Source: a virus
Virus record (IMG/VR): IMGVR_UViG_3300017781_000007
Span: 1 to 59,509 of that record
Reading direction: 5' to 3' (one strand)
Length of the DNA: 59,509 nucleotides
The notes under the pieces: generated by a model
Seen by the model: only the letters and a program-made list of their open reading frames with translations
Told to the model about the DNA's origin: nothing
Database searches by the model: none
Position numbers and translations under genes: made by a program
In this document: in pieces, positions 1 to 14,396 of the stretch
Layout of the letters: every line of letters begins with the position of its first letter
Numbering within the stretch: the stretch's first letter is position 1

Positions 1-198
1 AAATCTTTGTAATACATTTAATTTTTCTTCAGCTTGTGCAATTTTATCTATTTGTTTGTCTACTTCATCAATATGTTGCGGATGTTCACCAATTCCGACT
101 GATTTACTCAGGTATATAGTTATTGTTGCATGAGCTTCTGATACTTGAGCATTATACTTATCTTCTAATGCTTTTATTATTAGATTTCTAAACTCCAC
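1..198 (-). CDS. Small conserved phage protein, cut by the window edge
   Basis: A GTG start at 198 overlaps the stop of the upstream PAPS-reductase-like gene, and 66 codons stay open to base 1. The peptide contains the segment SVGIGEHPQH and a charged, helical C-terminal half. I recognise this as a small conserved marine-phage protein of unknown function (about 65-70 aa). The C-terminus is missing here. If the window is circular, the frame continues for 13 more codons from base 59509 and stops inside the DNA polymerase start region. Family membership is from memory; the open frame is seen. Confidence 0.75.
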   Translation of the reverse strand, partial: MEFRNLIIKALEDKYNAQVSEAHATITIYLSKSVGIGEHPQHIDEVDKQIDKIAQAEEKLNVLQRF

Positions 199-994
199 AA
201 AGGCCTTCGCATTCTTGATTGAAGAGATCTGGCCCGTCATCATTTTTAAATTTAACTTCGTCTAAAGGTACACACTGTCTATGTACAAAATTTTTTACTT
301 TAGGATTATGCATACGCATCTTTTTATCAAATTCTACAGCAGATGCAAATTCTTTCGGTCTGTTATTTCTCATATCTATCCAAAAGTTGTCATCATGAAA
401 AGGACAGCCAATACACGCAGACTTAACTGGTATTTTAAATCCTTTACCTTCATACCATTTTAAACAATCTGTTCTTGACATCTTCTTATCAATTAATGGC
501 CATACATTTTTTTGCCACCAAAATCTAGATGGTTTCATACGCATGATTTCATCAGTTGATATACCAACCCAAACTTCTATGTGTTCAGTTTTTGGAAATC
601 TCTGTCTTGGTTTAAGTCCACATAGTTCTCTAATCTTTTTTGCAATTGGAGTTATCTTGTATTCTCTCGTGCATTGTCTACGACCCATACCTTTTTTACC
701 TTGATCATTTAAAGTATAAAACGGTGCGGAAGCAAATTGGTTACCGCCTGGTGCGAGAGCCGTGAGGATGTCATCTTGAATATTACCTTTCTTAACAATG
801 TGTACAGGGTAACTTAGAACGCTTCTAAGGTACTCAAGGTGTTTTATTACTGGTTCAGGTTCCCAACCCGTATCAGCAAATACAGCTGCATCAGGTTTTA
901 CACCAAACTCTCCAGCATCTGCCATCAAGGCCATTGTAGAGCTCTGTACGCCCGCTCCAAGGCTAAGAATTCTTAGTCTAGGTTCTTTTTCCAT
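188..994 (-). CDS. PAPS-reductase-like (PP-loop ATP pyrophosphatase fold) protein
   Basis: A 268-aa protein with an N-terminal PP-loop, SLGAGVQSS at residues 11-19, typical of the adenine nucleotide alpha-hydrolase/PAPS reductase superfamily. It also has GISTDE at 144-149 and a cysteine set (C108 in CTRE, C177, C194-x-x-C197 before PFH) that could bind a metal or Fe-S cluster. I chose the start at 994 because AAGGAG lies about six bases upstream; a longer reading from 1039 adds 15 unconserved residues and overlaps the upstream gene. Phage homologues are common, but the substrate is unknown. It follows the cytosine methyltransferase with one small membrane gene between, so a nucleotide or DNA-modification role is possible but not shown. 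Confidence 0.8.
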   Translation of the reverse strand: MEKEPRLRILSLGAGVQSSTMALMADAGEFGVKPDAAVFADTGWEPEPVIKHLEYLRSVLSYPVHIVKKGNIQDDILTALAPGGNQFASAPFYTLNDQGKKGMGRRQCTREYKITPIAKKIRELCGLKPRQRFPKTEHIEVWVGISTDEIMRMKPSRFWWQKNVWPLIDKKMSRTDCLKWYEGKGFKIPVKSACIGCPFHDDNFWIDMRNNRPKEFASAVEFDKKMRMHNPKVKNFVHRQCVPLDEVKFKNDDGPDLFNQECEGLCGV

Positions 995-1187
995 AACGTC
1001 TCCTTCCGAATAAAGTTCTCCAGCACCAGCTTCTGCCAATACTTATTACTGTAAATATAACAGCTATATGAAAACTCTCCCACACTGTTGGATACATACC
1101 AAAATATGGAAAGATCCAAAGCTGTATCAATGTTGATAGAATCAAACCGCTGCCAACATCTATACAAGTTTCAAATAAATTTCTCAT
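978..1187 (-). CDS. Small two-helix membrane protein
   Basis: A 69-aa protein. Its ATG overlaps the methyltransferase stop as ATGA, which suggests translational coupling. Two hydrophobic stretches (about residues 14-32 and 38-52) are followed by a basic tail, FGRRRYGKR. I recognise the general pattern of a small membrane protein common in phages, with a short N-terminal segment containing ETC. Function is unknown. Its end overlaps the start of the PAPS-reductase-like gene by 17 bases. Confidence 0.65.
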   Translation of the reverse strand: MRNLFETCIDVGSGLILSTLIQLWIFPYFGMYPTVWESFHIAVIFTVISIGRSWCWRTLFGRRRYGKRT

Positions 1188-2185
1188 GCTAATACTTTCA
1201 TTATTGATCTTCCAATTTCTTCTGCGATTTTCGGGACGATAGCATTCCCCAATCCTCTAAGTCTGTGTGCCCTGCCGGGTACCCCATTAACCACTCTACC
1301 CACATTGGGTTCAGAGAGCCAATTTGCCTCCCGCAATGTCCAGCTACTACTTCCTCTAGATTTGATTTGTTCCTGTTCGCTAGTTTCTCCCGGTTGTTCT
1401 CTGTAATATTTGGAAATACTTTGTTCGCTCTTGGTGTTGGCCACATTAGATGCGGATTCGCTACTTGATCGTTCAAACTTATTGGCATTTTCTTTTTTAA
1501 TTTCATCTTCATTCTTTTCTCTGACGCTGGACCTCTCATGCAATTTGCGTCTGGTGTTCTCCATAATCTCATTGTCTCTGGATCTACCTGCTCTCTCAGG
1601 TTTGAAGGTCGTGTCCTCCCTTTCCTCTGTCCTGTCATTAATTTTATTGTCCCCTCTTTTGATCTCGGAGGTAAGTGATCCATTGTGTTTGGAGTAGCCC
1701 ACAACCCAGAATCGCTCTCTTTTGTGCGGAGCACCGACGCCTGCAGCTGGAATAATAAACGTTTGGATTTCGAAGCCTTCACTTTCCAAGTCAGAGCATA
1801 CTGTTTCGAATACCATGCCGTCTTGGATGTTAATAATACCTCTGACATTTTCTGCAATAACGAAGGTGGGTTGGACTTCTTTAATGACTCTAAACATTTC
1901 AGGCCAGAGATATCTATCGTCTGCTGTGCCTTTTTGTTTTCCTGCAACGCTGTATGGCTGGCACGGGAACCCACCTGTGAGTATATCAACTCTTCCATAG
2001 GTTTCTTTAATCTCTTTCCCTTTACACTCTTTAATGTCATTGTATATCTTAACCCCTTTCCAATGTTTTTGCAGCAACATTCTGCAGTAATCTTCTTTCT
2101 CACAGAAGGCTATTGTATTAAAGCCAACCTTTTCTAATCCAATACTGAACCCACCAATACCACTAAATAAATCAAGATGGTTCAT
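1184..2185 (-). CDS. DNA (cytosine-5) methyltransferase
   Basis: A 333-aa C5-MTase. Motif I DLFSGIGG is at residues 5-12, catalytic motif IV GGFPCQPYS at 71-79 (nucleophile C75), motif VI ENV at 112-114, and a motif VIII-like PHKRERFWVV at 153-162. A charged, variable target-recognition region fills roughly 170-290, and the closing motif RLRGLGNAIVP is near 308-318. All catalytic elements look intact, so the enzyme is probably active and may protect phage DNA from host restriction. The start overlaps the helicase stop as ATGA. Much of the gene also carries a second open frame on the same strand (see the 1201-1848 entry), and it is more GC-rich than its neighbours, which suggests acquisition. 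Confidence 0.93.
   Translation of the reverse strand: MNHLDLFSGIGGFSIGLEKVGFNTIAFCEKEDYCRMLLQKHWKGVKIYNDIKECKGKEIKETYGRVDILTGGFPCQPYSVAGKQKGTADDRYLWPEMFRVIKEVQPTFVIAENVRGIINIQDGMVFETVCSDLESEGFEIQTFIIPAAGVGAPHKRERFWVVGYSKHNGSLTSEIKRGDNKINDRTEEREDTTFKPERAGRSRDNEIMENTRRKLHERSSVREKNEDEIKKENANKFERSSSESASNVANTKSEQSISKYYREQPGETSEQEQIKSRGSSSWTLREANWLSEPNVGRVVNGVPGRAHRLRGLGNAIVPKIAEEIGRSIMKVLA
1201..1848 (-). CDS. Putative overprinted frame inside the methyltransferase gene
   Basis: This is a second reading frame on the same strand, open from 2103 to 1201 (300 codons). The part that looks like a real family starts at M86 (base 1848). It carries LTWKVKASKSKRLLFQLQ, two copies of a W(P/R/A)TP-x-A/T-N type motif, and SLNPMWVEWLMGYPAGHTDL near the end. 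I remember this tryptophan-rich pattern ending in an LNPxWVEWLMGxP motif from phage proteins annotated as DNA methyltransferase or methyltransferase-associated. It overlaps the MTase almost completely, so it is either true dual coding or a relic of frame switching. No start signal is decisive. Low confidence as an expressed gene. Confidence 0.35.
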   Translation of the reverse strand: MSEVLLTSKTAWYSKQYALTWKVKASKSKRLLFQLQASVLRTKESDSGLWATPNTMDHLPPRSKEGTIKLMTGQRKGRTRPSNLREQVDPETMRLWRTPDANCMRGPASEKRMKMKLKKKMPISLNDQVANPHLMWPTPRANKVFPNITENNREKLANRNKSNLEEVVAGHCGRQIGSLNPMWVEWLMGYPAGHTDLEDWGMLSSRKSQKKLEDQ

Positions 2186-8914: not shown

Positions 8915-9091
8915 CTACATATGATTTGAAAGTACAGCTAAAAGAATTGCACCTAATCCGCCTACAATAAACTTTTCCATTCTAGCGATTCGTGCTTCCA
9001 TTCTGTCTATTCTATCAAATGTTTGTTTTTGCATGTATCTGCAAATTTTTTCATGATGTTCTATCTTTTGTAATGCTGATTTTTTAGCCAT
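8915..9091 (-). CDS. Small tail-anchored membrane protein (58 aa)
   Basis: ATG at 9091 sits in a TAATG overlap with the end of the 1031-aa virion gene. The N-terminal two-thirds is basic and helical with heptad-like RIDRMEARIARME, and the C-terminus is a single hydrophobic segment (FIVGGLGAILLAVLS). I recognise similar small phage proteins beginning MAKKSALQKIEHHEK. The function is unknown; a holin- or pinholin-like role is possible from topology only. Confidence 0.65.
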   Translation of the reverse strand: MAKKSALQKIEHHEKICRYMQKQTFDRIDRMEARIARMEKFIVGGLGAILLAVLSNHM

Positions 9092-12000
9092 TATTGTTGT
9101 CCCCTTTCTGCTATTGCTGCACTTAATGCATCGTTAGGGAATAAACTTTGAAATTGTTGTTTTCGATTAGCTTGTGGTTGAAAAACTTGCGGTGCCATTT
9201 TTGTATATGCAGGTGAACCAAAATTAGGTGTTGTTGTATTAGCTACGTTTGGAACACTTACATTATTTTGTGCAGGTGGCACAAAATTAACAGTTTGATT
9301 CGCAACATTTACACCCTCATCAGATCCTTTGATATAATTTACACCACCAATAGCCGCTTCGTTTGTACCCTCTTTGACAGTTTTCAGTTCAGGATAAAAC
9401 CTATCTTTTAATTTTGAGTTTATTGCATTCATACTAAAACCATATTGGGGTATTAGAATATCTTTATTTAATAAGTAATCAGTAACTTCCTCAAAATCTA
9501 TTTTCTTAGGGTCAACTTGTGGAAAGTCTTTATCTTCTTGAGCTGCCCAATTTAGTAATTTGAACATAGATTTAGGAACATTTTGAGGTGTAGCTCTTCT
9601 CCCTAATTTTTCCATTCTTTCAAGATCTGTGTAAACATCTAATAAAAATTTTAAACTTTTAGGGTTTGCTAAATAATATCCACCTGCTGCAAGAATAAAA
9701 GTAAGAGGTATTGCACCCATAATACCACCAGACGCTGCGGCACCCGCAAACAATCCACCCGCAATGACCGATTGGCCAGGTCCTGAAAGCATAATTCTTC
9801 TCATTAGATATGAGTTTGAATCAGATATAACTTTACCATATTCTGCTTCCATCAAATCAATTAACTTACCAAGGTTTTGTGCAGCCTCTTTTCCTTGTCT
9901 GCCACCTCCGTACATTTCTGTCCACTTAGCAATAGACGCTTGTTTACTTGCGCTATCAAAATAACCCATGTTGTTTCTAAATTTTACTATATTAAATTGA
10001 CCTGCATCTTTTGCAGTCGCTTTAAGAGCTTGTGTATCTATTTCTCCAAGACCATATCGTAATGCTTTTTCGGGATCAAATCTTTTTACAGCTTCTAAAT
10101 TTTCTGTACCCGCAGCTTTAAATATATCTTTCATACCTTTAAAATCGACTACTCCTGTTTTCTTTGCATCATTTATGTATTCACCTAAAGTTTTTGCAAC
10201 ACCAGGTGGTTGTTGGTCGAAAGATTTAATTATTGATTCCCACAAGTAATTTGTTCGTGCTCTATTAAATAACTCTTGGCCTGCTTTGTTACCTTGATTG
10301 ACGCCTAATATAAATTTTAATTGTTCCATTGCTTGAGGAGCCATAGAATCATTTTGCGTAAATACATTTCTTATTGCATTTTCCCACATAGCACTCTCAC
10401 CTGTTCTTCCAGGGTTAAGCACACCTGCCATTGCTTTTGTTGCGAAAATATTAGCTTCAGAGTTTTTTAATTTTTTTGCTACAGGACTGTTAAAAGCACT
10501 TACTGTAGTTGAGAAATATTTATTAGCATAAAACAAAGAATCACCAAATTGTTTCATGTCGTTAACAGTTTTTGTCAAAAATTCATCTGCAGTTTGTTTT
10601 CCTGAGGATGCAATTAATTCATCATATTGTTCTTTGAACACTGGACTTTTCATATAGCCATCAATTGCTGCTGGATTACCTACTTTGTTAAAACCATTCT
10701 TCATATTAGTTTGTAAAGCCCAAAACATATTTAAAGGATCATCAAGTCCACTATTAGCAAAATCTCTCATAATTGTTTTCATCAAACCTTGATATTCAGT
10801 AGGTGTAATGTAGTCATCTATACCTCTAAGTTTGTTTATAGTATCTACAAAAGGATCTCCAAACTCAGAGCCTTTTTTAAAGGCTGCACCATATTCAGGT
10901 ATTCTAGCACCATCTTTAACTACCTTACCTGTAAATGGTTCTAATGAACTTTTTTCAAACCCTTCCATAATTTCAGTTGCTGCTTTTTTAACATCAGCTG
11001 TTGGTATGATTCTTGGATTACCCATTTTTTCAGTAAGTTTATCAACTACTGTGTAGTTAGCTCTTATACTTTCAAAAAATTGATTTAAATTATTTCTCAT
11101 TACTGGTAAGAATTGCAAATTCATAATACCAACATGTTGAATTGGTGCCTTATCAGTCACCTCTGCTAACATAGCCTCAAAAGCTTGTTTCTCAAATTTT
11201 TGTCTTTGTTTCTTTGCAAAGGTGTTAACGATAGGAATAACACCAAATATTTTTTCGTATGCAGTTATTATTCTTCCCCCAATTGATCCTGTCTTAGCTA
11301 CAGCTGGTATAGTCATTTCTATGTTTTTCTTTTGTGCAAACTCAGCTAATTCTTTTGACTCTTTACTTCCTAATCCTAATGGCCCTTTCATTCCTCTCAT
11401 TACAGTTCCTAATATAGGAGCAATTGATGAACCAATTAAATTATAGAACAAAGCATTCTGCATTGCTTCTGCTCCGTGAACAAATACTTGTTGTGCGTAA
11501 GGTAACTTTTTAATATCATTGTTAGATACCTCAGATAGATCTTGTAGAACTGCACCATTAAAATCCGTAGCCATGTTTGCAGCATCGTAGAGAACAGATC
11601 CAGCTCCAGCACCCGCAGAACTTACTAGTTGTGATTTTACTTCAGTTGCTAATAATTGAGAGGGAAACTTACTTAAATTTCTAAATCCATCAGCTACATT
11701 ACCAGCCACTCTTGCAGCACGATTTAATATTTTTACATTTTTTACAATAGGTAATTTGTTTGCAATAGCTTTAAAACCATCAAACTTATCTGCTGCCGCC
11801 ATGTACTTATTTGCACCATAACCCTGCATAGGATCTCTTCTAAACTCTTCAATAATTTTTGGCATGTCTTTTATATAAACATATCCTGCACCTGCAACGT
11901 CTCCAATTAATTCTAAATCTGATCTTTTAATTCCTCTATCTTCACTGGCGAACGGGATCATTCCTTTAGTTGCAGTAGTAAATGGTTGAGCCTTTTCTGT

Positions 12001-12186
12001 TTTTTCTTTTGCAATAAGCTTAGAACCGATTCTTCTTTCCTTTTCTATTTCAGTTACACTTGAGTAACCTTTAAGAACACCTTGTTGAAAAGCCATATCA
12101 ACTGCATCTCTTTGTGTGGCATTAAGCTCTTCTGGATTAAATGTTTTATTATCTAATCTTGTCTGTAATTCTTTGATACTTGCCAT
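9091..12186 (-). CDS. Large internal virion / ejection protein candidate
   Basis: A 1031-aa protein without enzymatic motifs. It is rich in Ala, Asn and Lys, largely helical, with a strongly hydrophobic Gly/Ala segment at about 810-842 (GGLFAGAAASGGIMGAIPLT and onward) and an Asn/Pro/Gln-rich, probably disordered C-terminus. It is last in a run of large genes (281, 736 and 1031 aa) after the tail genes, the order in which podoviruses encode proteins ejected with the DNA (P22 gp7/gp20/gp16, T7 gp14-16). A membrane-inserting segment fits an ejection protein. I see no lysozyme or transglycosylase motif. The role is inferred from position and composition. Confidence 0.6.
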   Translation of the reverse strand: MASIKELQTRLDNKTFNPEELNATQRDAVDMAFQQGVLKGYSSVTEIEKERRIGSKLIAKEKTEKAQPFTTATKGMIPFASEDRGIKRSDLELIGDVAGAGYVYIKDMPKIIEEFRRDPMQGYGANKYMAAADKFDGFKAIANKLPIVKNVKILNRAARVAGNVADGFRNLSKFPSQLLATEVKSQLVSSAGAGAGSVLYDAANMATDFNGAVLQDLSEVSNNDIKKLPYAQQVFVHGAEAMQNALFYNLIGSSIAPILGTVMRGMKGPLGLGSKESKELAEFAQKKNIEMTIPAVAKTGSIGGRIITAYEKIFGVIPIVNTFAKKQRQKFEKQAFEAMLAEVTDKAPIQHVGIMNLQFLPVMRNNLNQFFESIRANYTVVDKLTEKMGNPRIIPTADVKKAATEIMEGFEKSSLEPFTGKVVKDGARIPEYGAAFKKGSEFGDPFVDTINKLRGIDDYITPTEYQGLMKTIMRDFANSGLDDPLNMFWALQTNMKNGFNKVGNPAAIDGYMKSPVFKEQYDELIASSGKQTADEFLTKTVNDMKQFGDSLFYANKYFSTTVSAFNSPVAKKLKNSEANIFATKAMAGVLNPGRTGESAMWENAIRNVFTQNDSMAPQAMEQLKFILGVNQGNKAGQELFNRARTNYLWESIIKSFDQQPPGVAKTLGEYINDAKKTGVVDFKGMKDIFKAAGTENLEAVKRFDPEKALRYGLGEIDTQALKATAKDAGQFNIVKFRNNMGYFDSASKQASIAKWTEMYGGGRQGKEAAQNLGKLIDLMEAEYGKVISDSNSYLMRRIMLSGPGQSVIAGGLFAGAAASGGIMGAIPLTFILAAGGYYLANPKSLKFLLDVYTDLERMEKLGRRATPQNVPKSMFKLLNWAAQEDKDFPQVDPKKIDFEEVTDYLLNKDILIPQYGFSMNAINSKLKDRFYPELKTVKEGTNEAAIGGVNYIKGSDEGVNVANQTVNFVPPAQNNVSVPNVANTTTPNFGSPAYTKMAPQVFQPQANRKQQFQSLFPNDALSAAIAERGQQ

Positions 12187-14396
12187 TACTTAATACTTTC
12201 AAGGTTTGTATTCATGTTTTGAATAACACTTTCACCCGCCATTTGCATTGCTTGTTTATTTAAGTAAGAAGCCACCTCTGGCATAAATGAAAAGTTAGTT
12301 GTTAGATATCTTGTGTTACCACCCAAAGCTATAAATTGTTGTGCTTTGTTTTTAAATTGATCTTGAAGTTCTCTGTTAAGATCCTTGTACTGACTTCTAA
12401 TTTTCCTATCTGATGTAAGTACTTTAAATATTTCCGTACGATTCGCTGCATCTTCAATGTCAGCTCTTGTTAATCTATCTTCATCTTTGTTTGCGTTTGC
12501 AAGAATATATTTCATCCTTGTTTCGATTAATGCTGCTCTTGTTATTTCACTTAAAGTACCATCTGAAGTAACGTTATCTAAAATACCTCTTATTTCTTTT
12601 CTAAATTCTCCTACAAGCTCGTCTTGTTCTTTTTTTTCTTCTTCATTAAGAGATCTTATTTCACCACTCTGTTTATCTAAAGCATCACCCATAATCATGT
12701 CATTTACTATTATATCGTCAATTTCAGTATTTTGAGCTGAGCTTATATCGCCAAAGCCAAACATTTCAGCAAAGTTAGAAACCGCACCACCAAGATTTTC
12801 AACACCTAAAGATATTAAACCAGATCCACCAACTGCTTTGTTTGAAAGTTTTTGTATTTCGTTTGTCATCTTATAACCAAGTGCAATACTTCCTAATTGT
12901 GCTCTCTTTTTATCTAATCTAGTTGTGCTTGGTTTCACTACGTTATACTCAGCATATTTCATAGGAACATATTCTGTCCCTATTTCTTGACCTTGTTCAT
13001 TGTATTTTGGAATCATAATTGCATCTGTTCCAGAGTTCTTAAATACATCTTTGTCATACGCAACTCTTCCAAATAATGCATTTGGATCTTCAACAAGAAT
13101 TCTTTGTCTTGTACCTGTTACAGGACCAAAGCCTCTATTAATACCATCATCTTTACCTTTTTCTTTTGATTTTAAAAATGCAACAGCTAAATCATTTCTC
13201 CTGTCTGCCTCTTTTGAATACAATGCCATAGCAGTATCTACTGTTTCACCACCAGCTTTACCAAGAACATCTAAAAATCCTTTTATTCCTGACTCTGATG
13301 TTTTACCTTGCATCAATCCTGACGCTAATTTCATAAGAATTAAATCATTTGTTTTATCATTACCACCTGTAAGGTTTTGTATTCTGTCATAAAATCTATT
13401 GAATTGTTCTGCTTCTGCTGCATTTGCTTCTGATAATGCTTTATCTTTTAATTTTTTACCTGCTGAAGCAGCACCCTCTTGCATTTTGGCTGTGTCTGCA
13501 ATTTCATCATCAGACATAATTGTTCCTGATATTTGTCCGTTATCTTTAGGAAGTTTTGTTTCGTCAATAACATTACCTTTAAGATTTGGATCATTTGTTT
13601 GGAATGAGAATGTTTCAGCTATTTGGTCAGCAGTAATAGCTGATTTAATTCCGGCTTCATCTGCTTGTTCATAAGCCATTGTTAATATTTCTTGAGCTTG
13701 TTTTTTGTACTCAGGTTTTGTTGTATCAATGTTTGGATTTTTCTTATCATTTTCAATTGCATTAATAACAATTCTTACAGGATCATCACCAATTACTTGT
13801 GGTTCTCCCGCTTGTGCTCCGCCTGTTCTATCTCTAGTTAATTCTCCGCCGACTATTCCACCAAAACCAACAAGAGAAGTACCTGCTGGAATTCTGTCAT
13901 AAACTTGTTTACCTGTTTGTTTAAAAGCTTTGGCTGTTTCAGGGAATTTCTTTGCGAAAGTTCTTTGTCCTCCAGCCATTCTTAATCCTCTTGCTACTAA
14001 AGGTGTACCTAACAACACTGATCCTATTCCAGAAACCATTGCTCCCATATCTCCCTCTCTTGCACCTTCTATAATATCTGAAGTACCTTGTCCTGCTACT
14101 TGTAAACCAAACCCACCTTCTAAAGTACCTGTTGTACCTGGATTTCTTTTAGCAAATCTTGTTGCTAAACCTTGTAGGCCTGAGCCACTGCTTAAACCTT
14201 TTCCTCTTGAACCAATAATTCTTTGTGCTGCAGTTCCTTGATACCCTAATGGAAAACCACCTCCGCCTGCTTGAGCAGCTTTTGATGTACCTAGCCCACC
14301 AACTTGTCTAGCTTTTTTAAAAGTTTTATAACCTCTATATGCTGCCGGAGCTAATCGAGCTAGACCTGCGCCTATTCCGTAAATTATTGGTAGCAT
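12186..14396 (-). CDS. Internal virion protein candidate (736 aa)
   Basis: A 736-aa protein overlapping the start of the 1031-aa gene by one base. The first 200 residues are Gly/Ala-rich with amphipathic and hydrophobic stretches (MLPIIYGIGAGLARLAPAAY; MVSGIGSVLLGTPLVARGL). The remainder is charged and helical. No known catalytic motif. With its neighbours it forms a probable three-gene ejection-protein set. It could alternatively be a tail or core scaffold protein. Confidence 0.6.
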   Translation of the reverse strand: MLPIIYGIGAGLARLAPAAYRGYKTFKKARQVGGLGTSKAAQAGGGGFPLGYQGTAAQRIIGSRGKGLSSGSGLQGLATRFAKRNPGTTGTLEGGFGLQVAGQGTSDIIEGAREGDMGAMVSGIGSVLLGTPLVARGLRMAGGQRTFAKKFPETAKAFKQTGKQVYDRIPAGTSLVGFGGIVGGELTRDRTGGAQAGEPQVIGDDPVRIVINAIENDKKNPNIDTTKPEYKKQAQEILTMAYEQADEAGIKSAITADQIAETFSFQTNDPNLKGNVIDETKLPKDNGQISGTIMSDDEIADTAKMQEGAASAGKKLKDKALSEANAAEAEQFNRFYDRIQNLTGGNDKTNDLILMKLASGLMQGKTSESGIKGFLDVLGKAGGETVDTAMALYSKEADRRNDLAVAFLKSKEKGKDDGINRGFGPVTGTRQRILVEDPNALFGRVAYDKDVFKNSGTDAIMIPKYNEQGQEIGTEYVPMKYAEYNVVKPSTTRLDKKRAQLGSIALGYKMTNEIQKLSNKAVGGSGLISLGVENLGGAVSNFAEMFGFGDISSAQNTEIDDIIVNDMIMGDALDKQSGEIRSLNEEEKKEQDELVGEFRKEIRGILDNVTSDGTLSEITRAALIETRMKYILANANKDEDRLTRADIEDAANRTEIFKVLTSDRKIRSQYKDLNRELQDQFKNKAQQFIALGGNTRYLTTNFSFMPEVASYLNKQAMQMAGESVIQNMNTNLESIK

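Follow-up and report, generated by a model that had tools for sequence, protein, structure and literature searches.

The cytosine-C5 methyltransferase gene analysed here lies in a virus sequence of 59,509 nucleotides (IMG/VR record IMGVR_UViG_3300017781_000007, positions 1 to 59,509), the whole of which we call the window. On the same strand, a second long open frame runs across most of this gene, which raises the question of whether that frame encodes a protein and, if so, what the protein contributes to the methyltransferase. Among proven bacterial and phage genes, long same-strand overlaps with selection on both frames are, to our knowledge, rare. A sequence-only reading had proposed dual coding here by a 300-codon frame, and its coordinates and quoted C-terminal sequence proved exact.

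Two overlapping frames in one gene

The methyltransferase frame (frame A) matches PF00145 (E 5e-53) and TIGR00675 (9e-47), and its motifs I, IV, VI, VIII and X occur in the correct order for a C5-methyltransferase (PF00145). Motif IX is absent from the frame A chain. Similarity to M.HhaI is restricted to residues 3-164 of A, and EPNVGRVVNGVP occupies the expected place of motif IX. The second frame (frame B) is +1 relative to A and open for 302 codons. The tryptophan-rich blocks claimed for it are present as three W-x-T-P blocks at W135, W181 and W221 of B, and a suggested likeness to phage methyltransferase-associated proteins is borne out by a match of B residues 28-282 to PHROG_1008 (E 4.7e-24), a family also matched by all 60 B relatives scanned. 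Downstream of the methyltransferase, after about 140 bases, comes a phosphoadenosine phosphosulfate reductase-type gene (window 188-1039, minus strand; PHROG_424, 2.5e-49). Two large ORFs elsewhere on the minus strand of the window (9091-12186 and 12186-14396; 1031 and 736 aa) have no PHROG match at 0.001.

Table 1. Features of the overlapping methyltransferase frames, in window coordinates.
Feature	Position	Strand	Basis
Frame A, cytosine-C5 methyltransferase catalytic subunit, 333 aa, motifs I-VIII and X	1184..2185	-	PF00145, TIGR00675
Frame B ORF as listed (GTG to stop), 300 aa	1201..2103	-	ORF list, synonymous shuffles
Alternative in-frame ATG of B (residue 22)	2038..2040	-	sequence
Alternative in-frame ATG of B (residue 36)	1996..1998	-	sequence
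Motif IV GGFPCQ with catalytic Cys, A residues 71-76	1958..1975	-	sequence, M.HhaI alignment
Site just 5′ of the B head: ATG in 77/119 loci, 66 with a Shine-Dalgarno-like match; window reads CAG-ACG	1918..1923	-	
Conserved head of B (SGLKCLESL...LTWKVK...RLLFQLQAS), B residues 66-134; B-specific constraint begins	1702..1908	-	divergence, rates
Motif VIII region GAPHKRERFW, A residues 151-160	1706..1735	-	sequence, M.HhaI alignment
A linker, codons 166-290, over the B cassettes; 166-245 neutral as A protein, stop-free	1316..1690	-	substitution rates, stop counts
B cassette 1 (WATPNTMDHLPPRS...), putative target-recognition cassette	1564..1701	-	first-position cassette of same type in 50 loci
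B cassette 2 (WRTPDANCMRGPAS...)	1444..1563	-	cluster of 31 loci
B cassette 3 (WPTPRANKVFPNITEN...)	1315..1443	-	cluster of 9 loci
B motif IX-like segment LNPMWVEWLMGYPAGHT	1264..1314	-	M.HhaI alignment, IX scan, IX/X frames in relatives
Motif X (RGLGNAIVP), frame A	1232..1258	-	sequence; third-position divergence climbs again here

Selection on the two frames

Frame B could in principle be a shadow ORF, open and similar among relatives merely through the conservation of A and its biased codon usage, and the +1 frame of A is indeed intrinsically stop-poor, with 12.5 stops expected. Against this, synonymous shuffles of A, conditioned on its protein and codon usage, matched the 302-codon +1 open run in 0 of 5000 cases (mean 94, maximum 277), in agreement with the earlier view that so long a second frame is unlikely by chance. 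Divergence by codon position between the window and 28 relatives also argues against a shadow. In codons that belong to A only, it is 0.142/0.084/0.481 at the three positions; in the overlap it is 0.233/0.122/0.192, and the most variable site there is the first position of A, which is the third position of B. Two neighbouring genes have the ordinary pattern (0.09/0.035/0.337 and 0.125/0.075/0.348).

Rates for four substitution classes were obtained from 243 pairs using a simplified, purpose-made estimator that is uncorrected for the shared ancestry of pairs, and gave a dNN/dNS for B of 0.21 over A codons 91-312 (95% bootstrap interval 0.16-0.28), so that purifying selection extends beyond the methyltransferase frame. 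Within codons 166-245, substitutions that leave the B protein unaltered are frequent (dNS 0.92), and those synonymous in A form the rarest class (dSN 0.055). By these rates the shadow explanation is refuted, and we give it next to no weight. Dual coding is supported by this purifying selection together with the homologues of B, which keep the frame open and have no random stops.

Selection is not uniform along the gene. By A codon, it acts on A only at 1-90, on both frames at 91-165, on B only at 166-245, on both again at 291-312 and mainly on A at 313-330. Constraint on B begins abruptly at A codons 91-93, and a broader sample of 1,721 pairs has the same onset. The sequence-only reading, in which both frames looked conserved, holds only in part. 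B-specific selection starts only at about residue 64, residues 1-63 behaving as a shadow of A, and over codons 166-245 the A frame stays open while its protein sequence is essentially neutral. Across 124 loci, the A frame over the cassettes has 9 stops in 19,552 codons, where synonymous shuffling of B predicts 731, and is stop-free in 122 loci (2.4 expected). Eight of the nine stops fall in one locus. This locus (L163) is the only one in which the A frame is broken over the cassettes, and its B frame is still open. Over codons 166-245 A is therefore an open, neutral linker, and the protein selected there is B.

Cassettes and a motif IX-like segment in the second frame

B proteins are composed of the head, 2-7 tandem cassettes (median 40 residues) starting with W/F/Y-x-T-P, and a final LNPxWVEWLMGxPxGWTDL segment. 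We counted 277 cassettes in 86 B proteins. The same cassettes reappear at different positions and with different neighbours, and 193 cassette pairs are at least 70% identical in genes with A halves less than 50% identical, so that divergent genes share cassettes. Because the cassettes lie between motifs VIII and IX, are several per protein, are exchanged and are under constraint, we consider them to be putative target-recognition units, each of which would read DNA. In six loci (L046, L052, L060, L068, L079 and L038) B has an extra domain of ~120 residues (TTIDHWLRSDHCFAYP...YWNMIKPYL), which follows motif IX or stands between cassettes and has no Pfam match.

The final segment of B (LNPxWVEWLMGYP) fits the motif IX that is missing from A. 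If B were instead an unrelated overprinted protein, such as a regulator or inhibitor of the methyltransferase, this likeness would be due to chance; the motif IX match is short, and B has no detectable database relative outside its own family. However, A has no motif IX, and the best IX-like segment of B is the LNPxWVEWLMG segment, at one same place, in 116 of 120 loci. Moreover, in actinophages the corresponding segment lies directly before motif X of one chain, and phmmer aligns RLSARFVEWMMGLPDGH of one such relative (L182) with KLHPRECARVMGYPDSY of M.HhaI in register with motif X, the segment alone being below threshold. We regard an unrelated protein as very improbable.

The actinophage relatives partition the motifs in other ways. 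In L174-L178 and L185, a catalytic gene with motifs I-VIII is followed by an overlapping +1 gene with the cassettes, IX and X. In L182, L183 and L188, A carries I-VIII, a linker, IX and X, and the +1 frame has cassettes only. In L179 and L184, the last cassette, IX and X are in frame with A. The second genes of these phages have no Pfam or NCBIfam match above threshold. A model of the L182 A chain superposes on M.HhaI over 1-312 (Z 15.9, 216 residues, rmsd 3.7), with a disordered linker (pLDDT about 37) and a folded IX-X region (pLDDT 76-91). In L180 and L181 (about 1435-1590), the catalytic-subunit ORF has 785 codons, and an intein-like C-terminus (HSFIAAGIVVHN) directly precedes the catalytic Cys of a CQDLS motif.

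Known enzymes provide several comparisons. M.EcoHK31I is a split C5-methyltransferase of specificity YGGCCR. Its small chain, according to what Lee, Kam and Shaw reportedly described in 1995, is encoded in an alternative frame within the large chain's gene, and we know of no tandem cassettes described for it. The window family, as read from sequence, has the partition described for M.EcoHK31I, where the large chain carries motifs I-VIII and X and the small chain motif IX (PMC3404938). An overlapping frame for the predicted second chain is directly seen in the window family. Selection and cassette sharing place recognition in the overlapping frame of the window, unlike in M.EcoHK31I, whose small chain carries only motif IX and whose TRD is predicted in the large chain; this account conflicts with recognition in B (PMC3404938). 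M.AquI is likewise two-chained, its N-terminal half being catalytic and its other half carrying the variable region and IX-X (PMC3404938), a partition resembling that of L174-L178; unlike M.AquI, the window type keeps motif X on the catalytic chain, and its frames overlap over nearly their full length. The C5-methyltransferases of Bacillus phages SPR, phi3T and H2 each combine target recognition domains, in tandem, in a single enzyme (PMC8936443). B proteins, with 2-7 tandem exchangeable cassettes, would resemble them if each cassette reads a DNA target, but in the Bacillus phage enzymes the recognition domains are in the catalytic frame and chain.

Altogether, we propose, with a probability of about 0.8, that both halves of a single split, probably multispecific C5-methyltransferase are encoded at this locus in overlapping frames, A being the catalytic and B the specificity subunit. 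Frame A would provide SAM binding, the PCQ loop, motifs VI-VIII, a long unstructured linker and motif X, and frame B, initiated within A and translated as a separate chain, would provide the head, three tandem target-recognition cassettes and motif IX. Paired with each other, these chains would form an active enzyme methylating several sequences, which presumably shields the phage genome from host restriction. The cassette DNA would be selected for B, and A would need only to lack stops, letting ribosomes get to motif X.

Some results weigh against this proposal. The translation of B and the two chains are inferred from sequence. B has no Pfam, NCBIfam or PDB sequence match, including a search of its profile against PDB sequences, and the AlphaFold model of B alone is unreliable (pLDDT 68, pTM 0.35), with no significant match in a PDB structure search. 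The window lacks the ATG that most relatives have at the start of B, and that ATG is no commoner than the codon usage of A predicts (p 0.37). A codon choice favouring ATG at this site is not supported. In the window, the ATGs at residues 22 and 36 of B are possible starts. The lack of the onset ATG in the window and in about a quarter of loci, together with the abrupt onset of constraint on B, would also suit a +1 frameshift near codon 85-92 by a fraction of the ribosomes that start in A, by which B would be the C-terminal part of an A(1-90)-B fusion that pairs with full A. However, the ATG at the onset comes with a Shine-Dalgarno-like sequence in 66 of 119 loci, B is annotated as a separate gene in the actinophage relatives, and M.EcoHK31I has two chains (PMC3404938). 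We therefore judge such a fusion unlikely and favour a separately initiated B.

Distribution and implications of the proposed split enzyme

Using tblastn, we found relatives of B at 80 IMG/VR loci, kept from at least 589, and at 79 loci in bacterial genomes. Phages with a relative include those of Paenibacillus, Lacticaseibacillus, Vibrio, Xanthomonas and Escherichia (K1G and N15). Many prophages also have one, and the titles of the genome contigs concerned, most of them MAGs, name many bacterial phyla. B overlaps A in the +1 frame in 86 of the 87 loci where both frames were recognised, the sole exception being a Mycobacterium phage with a rearranged gene. Among the 79 genome loci no standalone B without an overlapping A was found, except at one locus truncated by the contig end. 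N15 gene 58 had no close match in E. coli genomes. Two Cheoctovirus phages (L088 and L089) have truncated or rearranged remnants, with IX and X in overlapping frames of short ORFs annotated as hypothetical or DNA methyltransferase.

Records for Bloom, K1G and PhiXhv-28 already label both ORFs DNA methyltransferase, and the PHROG_1008 name, 'DNA methyltransferase', covers frame-B proteins and says nothing of an overlapping half that bears motif IX. That a C5-methyltransferase can be split over overlapping frames is already known. As far as our searches reach, the breadth of the family, the second-frame cassette array, the neutral stop-free passage of A and the variable motif partition are new; the open-access literature searched contained no account of the frame overlap in phages, an absence that does not prove novelty.

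We consider it reasonably likely that these loci represent a very widespread class of methyltransferases in which the entire specificity apparatus, exchangeable cassettes and motif IX, lies in a second frame over the catalytic gene. In such a class A would supply a neutral but obligatorily stop-free linker, cassettes could shuffle only if open in both frames, and IX and X would have moved between frames by lineage. Genes that usually carry a single methyltransferase annotation contain this overlap in many phyla. Should B be the specificity subunit, targets cannot be predicted from frame A alone, annotation pipelines that drop the overlapping ORF miss one half of the enzyme, and B would be destroyed by codon-optimising A for expression. 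The locus is also a natural test of cassette exchange under two-frame constraint.
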